From Accumulibacter sp. (GTDB lineage Bacteria; Pseudomonadota; Gammaproteobacteria; Burkholderiales; Rhodocyclaceae): a stretch of 32,448 bases of DNA. The translations under genes were made by a program, and so were the position numbers. The stretch is taken from positions 1 through 32,448 of the forward strand of contig NZ_JAMTDV010000039.1 of NCBI RefSeq assembly GCF_023806565.1, read 5' to 3'. Each line of letters begins with the position of its first letter. Position 1 is the first letter of the stretch. The notes beneath the pieces are model-generated. The model made no database searches and had not been told where the DNA came from. It saw nothing but the letters and a program-made list of their open reading frames with translations. Positions 3,599 to 14,520 of this stretch are shown one piece after another.

Positions 3599-4585
3599 GT
3601 GAAGCAGATCAGTTTTTCGGAAGCCGAGTTTGCCGGAAAGAAGCGAGTAACCAGACGCGAGCGCTTTCTTGCCGAGATGGAACGGGTGATCCCGTGGCAG
3701 GAGGTGCTGGCGGTGATCGAATCGCACTACCCGAAAGGGAAGCGCGGCCGGCCGCCGATCGGGCTGGAGCGCATGCTGCGGGTGTATCTGGTGCAACATT
3801 GGTACAGCCTGTCGGACGAAGGGGTGGAAGACGCGATCACCGACAGCCAGGCGTTGCGGGGGTTTGTCGGAATCGACCTGTCGCGGGAATCGGCACCGGA
3901 TGCGACGACGCTGCTGCAGTTCCGGCATCTGCTGGAGGAGAAGGAACTGACGAAGGCCGTCTTCGCGGCGATCAACGCGCAACTGACGGCCCAGGGGCTG
4001 ATGATGCGCGAAGGGACGATTGCCGACGCGACGATCCTTGCCGCACCGCCGTCGGTGAAGAACGAAGCGAAGTCCCGTGATCCCGAGATGCACCAGACGA
4101 AGAAAGGCAACCAGTGGCATTTCGGCATGAAGGCGCACATCGGCGTCGATGCCGAGAGCGGACTGGTGCATACGGTAGTCGGAACCGCGGCGAACGTCGC
4201 CGACGTGGCGCAGACGGCCGAAGTGCTGCACGGCGAAGAGAAGACCGTGTATCTGGATGCCGGCTACACCGGGGTCGAGAAGCGCGAAGACCTGAAAGAC
4301 CGGGAGATCGATTGGCAGGTGGCGACGAAGCGCAGCAAGCTGAAGGCGATCCCTAAGGAGAGCCAGCTCGGTACGCTGCTGCGTCGCCTGGAATCGGTCA
4401 AGGCGAGCATCCGCTCGAAGGTCGAGCATCCCTTCCACATCGTGAAGAATCTCTTTGGCCACCGCAAGGTCCGCTACAAGGGGCTCCCGAAGAACACGGC
4501 CCAATTGCACATCCTCTTTGCGCTCGCGAACCTGGTCATCGCCAAGCAGCGGCTTCTGGCCCTGCACAACCAAGGTGCGTCCTGA
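3599..4585 (+). CDS. IS5-family transposase (DDE)
   Basis: 328 residues from a GTG start with a strong GAGGAGGAG site. It contains the IS5-type N-terminus (KRGRPPIGLERMLRVYLVQH, followed by a tryptophan-tyrosine pair), the middle DATTLLQFRHLLE, the catalytic aspartates in IADATILAAP and VYLDAGYTGVEKRE, and the C-terminal glutamate region RSKVEHPFHIVKNLFGHRK with the family's N-K/R spacing. It cuts and reinserts the element by DDE chemistry. No frameshift or stop is present. The C-terminal ILFALANLVIAKQRLL segment is typical. Confidence 0.95.
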   Translation: MKQISFSEAEFAGKKRVTRRERFLAEMERVIPWQEVLAVIESHYPKGKRGRPPIGLERMLRVYLVQHWYSLSDEGVEDAITDSQALRGFVGIDLSRESAPDATTLLQFRHLLEEKELTKAVFAAINAQLTAQGLMMREGTIADATILAAPPSVKNEAKSRDPEMHQTKKGNQWHFGMKAHIGVDAESGLVHTVVGTAANVADVAQTAEVLHGEEKTVYLDAGYTGVEKREDLKDREIDWQVATKRSKLKAIPKESQLGTLLRRLESVKASIRSKVEHPFHIVKNLFGHRKVRYKGLPKNTAQLHILFALANLVIAKQRLLALHNQGAS

Positions 4586-8199: not shown

Positions 8200-9057
8200 T
8201 CAGGCCGCCACGCCATTGGCGAGCAGCGTTGCCGCGTCCGCTTCGACCAACTCGATGCCGAGTCGCTGGCAGAATCTTCGCTCCTTGTCGTTCGCCCCGG
8301 CGATCAATGCCCAGCCGGCCGGATCGGCCGCCGCATCGTGGATCAGGTTGCTGAGGATCATCCGTTCGGTATCGCGGTCGAGGCGCATGCCGAGCAGCAG
8401 ATAGCGCTTGCCGCGCCGGCGCGCCTTGAAAAAGGCGGGAAGCGCGAAGCCGCCCATCAGCTCGGTGATGTAGTCGACATAGTCGGCGTCGGAGGCGACG
8501 TAGCTGGCCACCGGCCGCGCCGTGCCCATCGGCTTGAGCAGCACCGGCAGCGTCGGGTCGGCTGACTCCGGAGGAATCTCCCGGTAACCGTCACCGGCGG
8601 AGTGGTACAGCCGGAAGCGGTGATCGGAGCCGCCGATCCGCGCACAGCCAACGATCAGCAGGTGAGGAATCGCGGCATACGAGTCGAGCAGCTGCGTGTC
8701 GCGGTTGATGTCGATCACGCAGGGCGGGCAGAGGCGCGCCAGCCAGTCGTGCAGCGCGGCCCGCGTCCACTGGCTGGCGCCGTAGGTGGCATCGAGGAAG
8801 CGCGTGACCGCTCCCCTGCCGCGCTTGAGTTCGACGTTCATCGCCGCCCGCGGAAATTCGTACATCAGCTTCGGCGCCATCGGCCGTCCGCCGTTCATCG
8901 CCAGGATCAGTTGCTCGCTCGTCGCGGGAATTCTCCGGCCGTCGGCCAGCGAGGTCACATCGGCCAGAACGCCGGGGCCGAGATAGGGAACGATGCTGCC
9001 GTCGGCAAGGCCGGATGGCCAAGCAGCAAGCAAGTCGGTGCGGGGAATTGTCGGCAT
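8200..9057 (-). CDS. SIR2-like domain protein
   Basis: 285 residues from an ATG at 9057 (MPTIPRTDLLAAWPSGLADG). The frame stays open 52 codons further, but that stretch looks non-coding and the ribosome site is weak either way. SIVPYLGPGVL near the N-terminus resembles the nucleotide-binding loop of SIR2_2-type proteins (vPfLGAGvS), and RYLLLGMRLDRDTERMILSN near the C-terminus resembles their YLFLGysL.D segment. The classical sirtuin catalytic histidine context is not evident, so NAD binding or hydrolysis is uncertain. I recall similar stand-alone proteins in nitrogen-fixation gene clusters of related bacteria, but no nif gene is visible here. Other SIR2-like proteins are phage-defence NADases; no partner gene is seen to support that role. 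Confidence 0.65.
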   Translation of the reverse strand: MPTIPRTDLLAAWPSGLADGSIVPYLGPGVLADVTSLADGRRIPATSEQLILAMNGGRPMAPKLMYEFPRAAMNVELKRGRGAVTRFLDATYGASQWTRAALHDWLARLCPPCVIDINRDTQLLDSYAAIPHLLIVGCARIGGSDHRFRLYHSAGDGYREIPPESADPTLPVLLKPMGTARPVASYVASDADYVDYITELMGGFALPAFFKARRRGKRYLLLGMRLDRDTERMILSNLIHDAAADPAGWALIAGANDKERRFCQRLGIELVEADAATLLANGVAA

Positions 9058-9732
9058 TGTGCGGATTCCGCATGGGTTTGTCCTACCCGAGCAAAACTCG
9101 TGCCGACCTCGCCAGCCAGTCGTCAAGGTCTGGCCGGCGCCTGCGTCAATCCGGATGTCGGGTTCGCGACAAAGCAGTCCGATGCTGGCGACAGCGGATC
9201 GAGCCGATGCCATGCCGCGTCACGCCGGTTGGCGTGGAGACTGCCCTCAGCCCGGACTTCAAGGGACAGTCGGGACGCGGTGTAACGACCGCGGAAGGCA
9301 GCGGGCCGCCACCGGCGCCGGCATGGGCGCAGGATTGCTGCTGGTCTGGCGCGTTGCCGCGATCACGGTCGTCCGGGCAACAGCCGTTGTCGGCACGCCG
9401 GAGCAGCCGCACGGGCCAGTCCCGGCTGGGCGGACATTCCGGGAAGCCGCTGAGCGGTCTTACAGTCTCCGGTAGAAATCCTGCTGGACAACCGCGATAC
9501 GCCTCCGGCAATTGTCCGCCTGCGTCTGGTACAGTTCCACTCCGGATCGTGTTGAACGTTTCCCGGCGCCGCACCCCGCGACCCCGCGGCGCGAAGTCAT
9601 GGCCGCAGCGGCGGGACGCGATGGAACGGGCACGCAATCCATACCGTGATCGCCATCGACGCCTGCGTCGGAGACGCGACCACGACCGAATCCACGTCTG
9701 TCACCGAATAGCACGATGAGGCCCATGCGGAC
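9058..9732. other. Gene-less stretch between divergent genes
   Basis: About 675 bases between the SIR2-like start (9057, minus) and the methyltransferase start (9733, plus). Frames on both strands are open but Arg/Pro/Cys-rich and unlike known families. I see no convincing promoter, hairpin or repeat; it must contain the promoters of both flanking genes. Confidence 0.45.
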
Positions 9733-11216: not shown

Positions 11217-13223
11217 ATGCTCTCGAAATTCGCCAACCAGAAAATCTGGGTGCGCCTGCTCGTCTCGATCGGCGCAATGACGATCGCCTCGTGGACGATC
11301 ATGATCGTCTGGATGGGTCACCTGAGCGAGAAGACGGCCATCGGGCAGGCGCAGGAATTCGCGCGCAGCGCGCACGACATGGTGCTCGCCGGGCTTACCG
11401 GAATGATGGTGACGGGTACGATCCAGCAACGAGAGGTGTTCATCGACCAGATCAGGCAGTTGCCCAGCATTCGCGACGTCAGGGTGTTGCGCGGCGAGGC
11501 GGTGATCCAGCAGTTTGGTTCCGGCTCCGAGGATGAAAGGAAACACGATTCCGCGGAGTCGCAGGTGCTCGCCACAGGAAAGGAATATTCCATCGTCGAA
11601 ACCGCGGCGACTGGCGAAGAGGAGCTTCGCGTGATTCGGCCGGCGCTGGCGCAGGAAGACTATCTCGGCAAGAACTGCATGATGTGCCATGCCGTACCGC
11701 AGGGCACCGTCCTCGGCGCGGTGAGCATGAAGCTTGCGCTCACATCGACCCAGGAAGCCGTCGCACGACAACGCATGCAGACGATTGCAGCAGCGGCCTT
11801 GCTGACCCTGCCGATGTTGTTCGTGATCTTCCTGTTCATCCGCAAGGTGGTCACACGGCCGCTCGCGCACGGGATGGATGTGGCGCATGCCGTGGCCGGC
11901 GGCAAGCTCGACAACGAGATCGAAGTGGTCTCGGGCGACGAAGTCGGCGATCTGCTGAAGACGATGAAGCTGATGCAGGAGCGTTTGAATGTCGTCCTGC
12001 ACGAAGTCGAGAGCTGCGGATTGAGCATGGGCCAATCGTCCTATCAGATTTCGGCGATTTCGAATGAAATCGCGAAGGTGAGCAAGCAGCAGGAGAGCCG
12101 CTCCGGCGAGGTGAGTGGAGCGATGTCCCAGCTCGACGAAATCTCCCGGCAGGCGCTTGCGCAGGCAATTGCCGCCGTCGAGCGCTCGAACAACGTCGAA
12201 GGCCTGGCGCGCGCCGGGATCACCAGCGTGGAAAGCAACGTGGAAGCGATGAAGACGACCTCGGCCAGGGTCGAGCAGGTCTCGGACGAGATTCGCGATC
12301 TGCAGCAGTCGGCACGAGAGATCGACGATATTGCCAAGGCAATCAAGGAAATCGCGGGACAGACCAATCTGCTGGCGTTGAACGCGGCGATCGAGGCCGC
12401 CCGCGCCGGCGAACAGGGACGTGGCTTCGCGGTCGTTGCCGACGAGGTGCGCAAGCTTGCGGAGCGCACCACCAAGTCTGCCGAACGCGTCGGAGCGATC
12501 GTCGGGCAATTGTCCGGCAAGGTGGAGCAGGTCGTCTCGACCATGGCTACCCTGATCGACTCGGTCAGCGAGACGCGCGAGGAATCCCGGCGCATGGCGG
12601 AAACCATGGAGCACATATCGAATGACGTCGCACAGACGGTACGAGCGAATGAAAGCATTTCCGCAGCGAGCACACGACAGCTCGATCGCTTCAGGCTGCT
12701 GCAGCAGACGCTCGATTCGCTGTTCCAGACATTGCGCGAATCGAGCAACAAGCTCAAGGTCACTGCGGCGATTAGCGACGACCTGACCGCAGTCGCCGCC
12801 CGTCTCAACGCTATCATGGCCAATTTCTCCTTCACCCATAGCCCGGACATCGACAAGGCGGAGAACGAAAATCGTCGAGCACCACGGCTGCAAGGCAACC
12901 TGCGGGTGCTCGTCGAGCAGGGAAAGGACACATTCGAGGGGATCACGCGCGACGTTTCACTCGTCGGCGCTCGGTTGCGGCTGGCACGGCCAATCGTTTC
13001 CGATCGTCCAATGACTGTGTCGATCTATCTCCCGGCGGAGGAGATGGCTGCATACTCCGGGCAGGTTCCGCTCAAGGTGCGTGCGCGTCTGGCCTGGAGT
13101 CATGGCAAGAGCGGCGAAGATTACGTCTGCGGGGTCGAATTTCTCGAGCTCGGCGAGCAACAGCGGGCGGCCTTGGTACGCTGTTTCGAATACTTCGGCA
13201 AGAACCCCACGTTCAGTGAATGA
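11217..13223 (+). CDS. Methyl-accepting chemotaxis protein with haem-c sensor and C-terminal PilZ domain
   Basis: 668 residues. TM1 is about 11-32 and TM2 about 188-208, enclosing a periplasmic domain (33-187) that carries CMMCH (C154, C157, H158), the covalent haem-c attachment motif. A HAMP linker follows (209-262), then the coiled-coil signalling domain with the CheA/CheW-contacting hairpin near 379-418 ([20 protein letters not shown]). After 550 comes a PilZ domain with both c-di-GMP motifs, RRAPR (553-557) and DVSLVG (579-584). The periplasmic part should sense redox state, oxygen or NO through haem; PilZ should tune the output with c-di-GMP. No other chemotaxis gene is nearby, and I see no clear ribosome site before the ATG at 11217. 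Domain calls rest on motifs; haem loading is inferred. Confidence 0.93.
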
Positions 13224-13671: not shown

Positions 13672-14265
13672 TCACTTTCCCTGGCTGCCAGCAGCACTAT
13701 CGGTCTGTCCTGGCAAATGGGACTGTTTCTCGGTGGTTCCGAGGATTGACATATGGCGCCGCAGGAGAATTTCACTGAGCTTTTCGTAGTATTGCCGTGG
13801 ATTTTCGCCACGCTTGCCGAGAAACTCGTAACCGAGATGTTCAATATCGGCCGCCGCCGCTCGATTCGCCTGCCACTTGCGCTGGAAATCGCCACCTGTC
13901 GAAACCGTTATCATGATCGCTGCAGCTACCGTGAAGAGCGCCGCAATGTCTTTCTTTATCTTCTCGTCAGCGATCAGGGACTCCAGCTTCAGTACCAGCC
14001 CCGAGAGGGCGCCGAGAACTGCAGCCGCCCAGGCGAATCCCCAGTATAGGCCGCTCCAGAGCGCGGCGATCTGCCGTGTCTCTGTATAGTTGCCAAGAAT
14101 CGCTTTCGCCGCCATGGCCTTTTCCGGGTCCTTGCTCTCGATTACCTGTTCCAGAGCAACGGTCAGCGTTTCGCCACGCAAATGCTCCTTCGTGCCGCTG
14201 AAATATTCGATCGCCACAGCCGCCAGGACGATCGCCGAGAGGAAAATGATGGCGTATCTTTGCAT
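13672..14265 (-). CDS. Small membrane protein, possibly SLATT/DUF4231-like
   Basis: 197 residues from an ATG at 14265; a GAGG lies upstream at a loose distance, and a longer frame to 14343 is unconvincing. Helices are predicted at 3-22, about 66-93 and 108-125. After the third comes DFQRKWQANRAAAADIEHLG (126-145), then YEFLGKRGENPRQYYEKLSE. A two-helix hairpin followed by an RkW...R.aA..ie.L.Y segment is reminiscent of SLATT/DUF4231 proteins, some of which are effectors in nucleotide-signalled defence. The likeness is topological, and the extra N-terminal helix and absence of a nucleotidyltransferase neighbour argue for caution. I do not recognise the family with confidence. Confidence 0.6.
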   Translation of the reverse strand: MQRYAIIFLSAIVLAAVAIEYFSGTKEHLRGETLTVALEQVIESKDPEKAMAAKAILGNYTETRQIAALWSGLYWGFAWAAAVLGALSGLVLKLESLIADEKIKKDIAALFTVAAAIMITVSTGGDFQRKWQANRAAAADIEHLGYEFLGKRGENPRQYYEKLSEILLRRHMSILGTTEKQSHLPGQTDSAAGSQGK

Positions 14266-14520
14266 CGTACTCGGCCTCGCTCTTGACCCCTGATCGGGAT
14301 CTGGAGGAGCCTCATGGCTCCCCCAGCCCGCCACGGTGCGCACGGATCACCTACACGACGCTTCGGCAGGTTCATCGACGTTCACCAACGACTAGCGTGC
14401 ACCGGTCACGCCGAAATCTCCGGAGCCGGGTGCTGGTGCCTCCGCGGCACAAAAATCTCCCTGAAAGGAAGCAGTACGACGGCGGCAGTTCTCGAAATTG
14501 TAATCGTGCCGGGAGCAGGG

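Follow-up and report, generated by a model that had tools for sequence, protein, structure and literature searches.

The window analysed here is a stretch of 32,448 nucleotides from Accumulibacter sp. (contig NZ_JAMTDV010000039.1), in which the gene P0001 (11217..13223, forward strand) encodes a chemoreceptor that carries in one chain a periplasmic CxxCH motif, a full signalling hairpin and a C-terminal PilZ domain. We consider it rather probable, from the sequence comparisons given below, that this receptor is a domain-swapped chimera of a haem-c sensor and a PilZ chassis, and that it would serve redox or nitric oxide (NO) energy taxis tuned by cyclic di-GMP (c-di-GMP). Haem-c-sensor receptors and PilZ-tailed receptors are both known types; their combination is new, and no report of a haem-c sensor, a methyl-accepting chemotaxis protein (MCP) module and PilZ in one receptor was found in the open literature searched, which leaves most subscription papers outside. 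The parts of the receptor, with the evidence for each, are the following (TM, transmembrane helix).

11217..13223, + strand: complete receptor gene (P0001), 2007 bases, 668 codons plus stop; translation, and orthologues in 8 further Accumulibacter genomes
11256..11312, + strand: TM1, residues 14-32; Kyte-Doolittle maximum
11313..11777, + strand: periplasmic sensor, residues 33-187, of a divergent sCache_heme type (GSU0582/GSU0935-like); Pfam, PDB profile match, hhalign
11406..11408, + strand: M64, predicted to be the distal axial ligand of the haem; counterpart of GSU0935 Met60 in alignments, Met in 63/63
11676..11690, + strand: CMMCH, residues 154-158, predicted haem-c attachment motif with H158 as proximal ligand; translation, conservation
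11784..11840, + strand: TM2, residues 190-208; Kyte-Doolittle maximum
11835..11990, + strand: HAMP, residues 207-258, with the breakpoint between sensor and chassis probably near its end; Pfam, segment identities
12003..12836, + strand: MCP signalling hairpin of the PilZ-chassis type, residues 263-540; Pfam, trees, identities
12867..13187, + strand: PilZ domain, residues 551-657; Pfam
12873..12887, + strand: RRAPR (RxxxR), residues 553-557, predicted c-di-GMP motif 1; translation, conservation
12951..12968, + strand: DVSLVG (DxSxxG), residues 579-584, predicted c-di-GMP motif 2; translation, conservation

In a Pfam search, MCPsignal (2.3e-37), PilZ (1.4e-13; 51.5 bits, cut-off 22.5) and HAMP (1.1e-6) were all above their cut-offs in P0001, and PilZ was placed C-terminal to the MCP hairpin. 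An MCPsignal domain with a conserved hairpin tip, a HAMP domain and two transmembrane helices identify the protein as an MCP. The CxxCH lies between the two hydropathy maxima, within a periplasmic span of about 155 residues. A first-pass annotation, made from the letters alone, had described CxxCH, full hairpin and C-terminal PilZ in a single chain, and this was borne out by the domain search and hydropathy; on translation, C154, C157, H158, R553, R557, D579, S581 and G584 all occupy the positions it had assigned to them. The matched part of P0001 is 25 residues longer than that of PDB entry 8c5v (322 versus 297; chain 'Methyl-accepting chemotaxis protein I'), which we take to be E. coli Tsr. 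These extra residues presumably correspond to about the four additional heptads of class 40H, a class that we assume to be linked to the flagellar F6-type CheA. The PilZ domain gave no PDB match up to an E value of 10 in a phmmer search with one query sequence.

The full sensor-hairpin-PilZ chain was found in 9 of the 28 genus genomes searched with P0001, its own genome (3.7 Mb, 139 contigs) included. The holders are G000, G003, G006, G009, G014, G016, G020 and G025, at 75-79% identity to P0001, and G011, at 51%. Since the chain recurs in nine genomes and one of them, G014, is assembled as a single contig that carries the receptor, the combination is a real gene and not an artefact. The eight full-length orthologues are 50-79% identical to P0001, and the eight motif residues named above are invariant in all nine sequences, which at this level of identity makes the motifs more than chance. 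As the first-pass annotation had claimed, both PilZ motifs are intact, RxxxR and DxSxxG being conserved in 9/9 sequences. The closest named orthologue (L037, 79% identical) belongs to Candidatus Accumulibacter iunctus, and the first 200 residues of the G009 receptor are the same as those of L037.

Sensor homology and predicted haem ligands

The first-pass annotation had spoken of a haem-c motif. The motif itself stood, CMMCH being present and periplasmic, with its two cysteines and its histidine invariant; the sensor around it lies below every Pfam cut-off, which makes the assignment weaker than that wording suggests. PF11845 gave no match to P0001 up to an E value of 1. We then used an alignment of 63 sensors, composed of P0001 and 62 relatives 20-77% identical to it and obtained from 72 by dropping those more than 90% alike; the relatives had been picked by CxxCH, a pattern that contains H158, and not by any Met. 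At an E value of 0.01, PF21563 (Mcp40H-20_sensor) and PF11845 match 21 and 11 of these 63 sensors, respectively. When the profile of this alignment was compared with the PDB, the two best matches were 3b47 (E 0.001 over 134 profile positions) and 3b42 (E 0.007 over 121), which according to the chain-to-protein names in the available part of PMC8396549 are GSU0582 and GSU0935; the remaining seven were short matches around the CxxCH to multihaem cytochromes. With hhalign the alignment matched the GSU0582 fragment with 94.3% and a P value of 1e-7, at 17% identity over the aligned sensor. After the haem-motif columns were taken out, the P value was still 6.4e-5 (64.4%), whereas the controls lay at 0.11-0.46 (8 shuffles) and 0.2 (reversed fragment). 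Judged by these alignments, the sensor is related, though divergently, to the haem-c sensors GSU0582 and GSU0935, and the relationship extends beyond the haem motif.

A comparison with 27 Tll0287-like sequences was likewise significant (96.6%, P 7e-10; shuffles 0.16-0.54, reversed 0.075), but once the motif columns were removed the alignment shrank to the N-terminal 51 columns (P 9.1e-6), so that the link of the sensor to the Tll0287 branch is weaker. A plain Tll0287 domain with Cys as distal ligand is unsupported, C154 and C157 being the sole cysteines of the periplasmic part. The genome itself encodes two Tll0287-like haem-c Cache proteins, one on contig C42 (L140, C42:10816-11313, in a 396-aa frame) in which Pfam finds no output domain, and another at C128:29399-29902 (196-aa frame). 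Among the Tll0287-like proteins of the class, PilZ was found in 0 of 28 frames (30 loci).

Position 64 is Met in all 63 aligned sensors, while the adjacent M63 varies (49 Met, 13 Leu, 1 Phe). In both PDB alignments M64 is paired with the first of two consecutive Met residues, which is chain position 26 of 3b42; if the CxxCH histidine of that chain (position 110) is taken as His144, position 26 would be the axial Met60. M64 is thus a predicted candidate for the distal haem ligand, a feature absent from the first-pass annotation, and we infer that haem c would be attached to the motif and ligated by His158 and Met64. In GSU0582 and GSU0935, as described in the accessible text of PMC8396549, the Met is bound to the haem in the reduced state, dissociates when the haem is oxidised, and gives way to NO and CO. 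A haem-c Cache domain of the signalling type binds NO tightly but gives no stable complex with oxygen, according to the available part of PMC12889525.

Origin of the two halves and their distribution

The sensor belongs to a CxxCH family, and the hairpin falls in a PilZ-tailed clade whose members have other sensors, which makes the receptor a domain-swapped chimera. A quick tree was built from 104 hairpins. It places the nine receptors in a clade of 23 rows (SH-aLRT support 100), together with 11 further receptors that have a PilZ tail, two decayed receptors, and L093, in which no PilZ was detected; the 60 hairpins from CxxCH receptors that lack PilZ all fall outside this clade. A smaller and more careful tree with 12 of those 60 showed the same split (95/96); Tlp1 and Aer of Azospirillum brasilense were not included in either tree. 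Segment identities agree with the trees. The two hairpin helices of P0001 are 14.3 and 17.7% identical to those of 24 sensor-family MCPs versus 31.4 and 29.9% to those of 11 PilZ chassis, while the hairpin tip, which is universal, is alike to both sets (61.0 and 64.8%). HAMP is 31.5% identical to the sensor-family MCPs versus 25.1% to the PilZ chassis. As the helices side with the PilZ chassis and HAMP leans slightly towards the sensor family, the point of exchange is probably near the end of HAMP.

Among the chassis from other genera that were scanned with Pfam, the N-termini are short in L079 and L082, without a recognised domain in L088, and PilJ in L101. Two Accumulibacter receptors of the type NIT-MCP-PilZ, with the PilZ motifs intact and NIT at an E value of 1e-61, were found in G005 (L016, 436-2931, + strand) and G022 (L017, 1492-3969, - strand). 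The two decayed PilZ receptors, L018 (G027, 1237-2511, + strand) and L035 (G005, 1411-2943, - strand), have nearly identical hairpins in different genomes; in both, PilZ begins only from its middle, directly after the hairpin, and no CxxCH sensor is seen in either frame. This common decay suggests an old or transferred remnant. G014 has, besides its chimeric receptor (L012), a second CxxCH-sensor receptor (L036, 43-2418, - strand) with three HAMP_2 stretches before the MCP part and no PilZ.

The first-pass annotation had asked how often CxxCH-MCP-PilZ chains occur; among the genomes sampled, the joined form was met solely in Accumulibacter. In a sample of the bacterial family, which we take to be Rhodocyclaceae-type, with at most 7 candidates scored per genome, the sensor family was present in 253 of 395 genomes and 51 of 68 genera. 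Outside Accumulibacter, the open frames of the sensor matches listed reach at most 612 aa, which is too short for sensor, hairpin and PilZ together; when 30 sensor loci were checked for PilZ, the 24 from other genera had no match and 6/6 from Accumulibacter had one. Samples of the class (369 genomes) and the phylum (398 genomes), which overlap, were searched with the full-length profile at an E value of 1e-60 or better and at most 3 candidates scored per genome, yielding matches in 29 and 20 genomes, respectively. Among the matches listed, the receptor itself was the only one to span both sensor and PilZ; given the cut and the three candidates, a diverged example could be missed. Domain checks of these loci found either sensor and hairpin or hairpin and PilZ, and six further long frames were two CxxCH receptors (688 and 702 aa) without PilZ and four PilZ receptors (678-834 aa) without CxxCH. 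None of 391 matching plasmid records covers 80% of P0001, and no relative of P0001 was found in the viral contigs searched. Within the genus, the other 19 genomes showed no sensor-hairpin-PilZ chain among the matches listed. In the family-sample listing 14 of them are without a sensor match, G022 has a weak one (6.4e-22) and four do not appear; at this coverage, a degraded copy of the receptor may exist in some of the 19.

Weight of the evidence and genomic setting

Several observations weigh against a chimera that serves energy taxis. For the sensor, PF21563 scores 18.0 bits on the whole protein and 21.3 on the sensor alone, under its cut-off of 27, and in a single-sequence phmmer search of the PDB 3b42 appeared only at an E value of 0.54, behind two chains named 4D2. 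For the exchange, the lean of HAMP is small (6 points), both hairpin and sensor trees have long branches, and the AU (approximately unbiased) test did not reject a hairpin tree in which the nine receptors are grouped with the 12 rows of the sensor family (p 0.32), although, the tree being unrooted, this constraint asks only the other PilZ rows to stand together and does not address the nesting. In sensor trees (71 rows, and 50 rows after dropping those under 200 bits), the eight close receptors group in a single clade (100/100 in the 50-row tree), and the sensor of L015, the receptor of G011, stands apart from them, a single origin being recovered in 0% of 200 bootstrap trees. For the function, the genomic setting in itself counts in favour: on contig C62 of the genome, matches to CheA and FlhA domains are separated by 2.4 kb and a full-length match to cd1 lies in a frame of 596 aa, and an NrfE/CcmF-family protein is encoded as well; contig C128 has a second CheA-type match in a 1815-aa frame (ChpA-sized). 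The CheA, FlhA and cd1 families, however, occur in 27, 27 and 28 of the 28 genus genomes, and being near-universal they do not track the nine receptors. Finally, a flagellar sigma-28 promoter upstream of the nine genes was rejected: against what we assume to be the sigma-28 consensus, the best scores were 7-9 out of 12, and shuffled sequences scored as well in 62-200 of 200 cases for seven genes, in 20/200 for the window gene and in 12/200 for L014.

Four other explanations were considered. We hold it quite possible, if short of probable, that the sensor is loaded with haem and takes NO, not redox potential, as its physiological input, which has been proposed for sCache_heme domains in fusions with signalling modules. 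The sCache_heme domain of P. azotoformans releases NO with a koff of 6.25e-4 per s and does not form a stable complex with O2 (available part of PMC12889525), and the cd1 protein of the genome, which appears NirS-like, with NirN as the alternative, is a possible maker of NO. However, its family is found in all 28 genomes and does not follow the 9 receptor holders. Moreover, the P. azotoformans domain is predicted to be five-coordinate, with water suggested as sixth ligand in the accessible text of PMC12889525, whereas P0001 keeps the Met of GSU0935, and the review favours redox sensing for GSU0935 (available part of PMC8396549). A redox and an NO input would be compatible with each other, and either may act on the proposed chimera.

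It is rather unlikely that there were two independent fusions, in which the same PilZ chassis received a CxxCH sensor once in L015 and once in the other eight receptors. The separate position of the L015 sensor and the bootstrap result just given speak for it, but the L015 branch is long, a single origin of the nine sensors was not rejected (AU p 0.098), and the hairpin tree unites all nine with a support of 84/66 (not starred).

PilZ domains that do not bind c-di-GMP exist, and the tail could be a docking or localisation module that senses no c-di-GMP. We judge this improbable: both motifs are intact in P0001 and its 8 orthologues, as well as in 11 other intact PilZ-tailed relatives, one of which has N for D. 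That the CxxCH is haem-free and forms a redox disulphide or a metal site would agree with the position of the sensor under the Pfam cut-off, but is very improbable, as H158 (inside the selection pattern) and M64 (outside it) show no more variation than the cysteines, both of the closest PDB relatives belong to haem-c domains, and the genome encodes an NrfE/CcmF-family haem-attachment protein (TIGR00353, 756.9 bits; cut-off 569).

The receptor gene stands alone. When 12 proteins of the window were compared with the record that contains L037 to L047, the receptor was the only one to match at an E value of 1e-10, and none of 11 neighbouring proteins was matched in the 8-kb flanks of L037 or L038. 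The window also encodes a PP2C phosphatase fused to a protein kinase (223-1905, + strand; 560 aa, with a C-terminal hydrophobic tail), an IS5-family transposase (3599-4585, + strand; NCBIfam, 343.6 bits), a SIR2-like domain protein (8200-9213, - strand) and a DUF4231/SLATT-like membrane protein (13672-14343, - strand; SLATT_1 with 39.3 against a cut-off of 41). SIR2-like and SLATT-like types are often found near defence genes.

Proposed working and comparison with known systems

In the swap that we propose, a haem-c Cache-type sensor, together with its transmembrane helices and perhaps most of HAMP, would have come from a CxxCH-MCP family that is common in this bacterial family and would have been fused to a signalling hairpin with its PilZ tail from a separate family of PilZ-tailed receptors. 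C154 and C157 would hold haem c, with H158 as one axial ligand and M64 as the other in the reduced state. When the iron is oxidised or NO binds, M64 would be released and the two N-terminal helices would move, and this change would pass through TM2, HAMP and the hairpin to CheA, so that swimming is steered along redox or denitrification gradients. PilZ comes after the second helix of the hairpin and should therefore sit membrane-proximal, near HAMP, where it is expected to bind c-di-GMP at the membrane-proximal end of the hairpin. Binding there may alter the sensitivity or the adaptation state of the receptor, and the outside signal would thereby be weighted by the swim-or-settle state of the cell. 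Such tuning of gain or adaptation would be as in A. brasilense, whose PilZ domains of Aer and Tlp1 tune aerotaxis (available part of PMC6406031).

If this is true, a single molecule brings together the internal level of c-di-GMP and a redox or NO signal from outside. The first-pass annotation had suggested such a coupling, with haem loading and c-di-GMP binding as inferred steps; it fits the sequence evidence and draws the backing for its functional half from homology. The bearer of the receptor is related to phosphate-removing wastewater bacteria, and the Accumulibacter group lives in sludge flocs through oxic-anoxic cycles. PilZ-tailed receptors may even be a chassis whose sensors were swapped repeatedly in this genus, NIT for nitrate or nitrite and haem-c for NO or redox, the latter perhaps twice; we regard this as doubtful. 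It would give a set of energy-taxis receptors gated by c-di-GMP, which would set swimming against floc or granule life in denitrifying and in anaerobic-aerobic cycles. The interest of the receptor lies in a clean, testable coupling and a visible swap, and not in a new kind of system. As both donor families can be used as controls that lack the other half and the breakpoint is visible, the effect of a PilZ tail on a receptor of known input becomes directly testable. Here the likely input is a haem, which allows its state to be read from the colour, whereas the ligand of Tlp1 is given as unknown in the accessible text of PMC6406031.

Among known systems, GSU0582 and GSU0935 of Geobacter sulfurreducens (3b47, 3b42) share with P0001 a periplasmic CxxCH Cache/PAS-like sensor between two transmembrane helices, HAMP, the MCP part and the aligned axial Met; unlike P0001, they are described as haem c - HAMP - MCP without PilZ in the available part of PMC8396549. 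The sCache_heme domains (DUF3365/Tll0287-like, PF11845) resemble the sensor in their strict CxxCH, their extracytoplasmic Cache type and their fusion to signalling modules including MCP; they differ in that PF11845 does not match P0001, as reported above, and PilZ is not mentioned in the accessible text of PMC12889525. In Tlp1 and Aer of A. brasilense, as in P0001, an MCP hairpin is followed by PilZ, the PilZ of Aer has the c-di-GMP residues and the sensor of Tlp1 is periplasmic; in contrast, the sensor of Aer is a cytoplasmic PAS domain with FAD as its presumed ligand, and the available part of PMC6406031 makes no mention of heme. The nearest intact chassis are the Accumulibacter NIT-MCP-PilZ receptors L016 and L017, which are 40% (residues 207-663) and 37% (189-663) identical to P0001 and adjoin the nine receptors in the tree, but they carry a nitrate/nitrite NIT sensor and no CxxCH.
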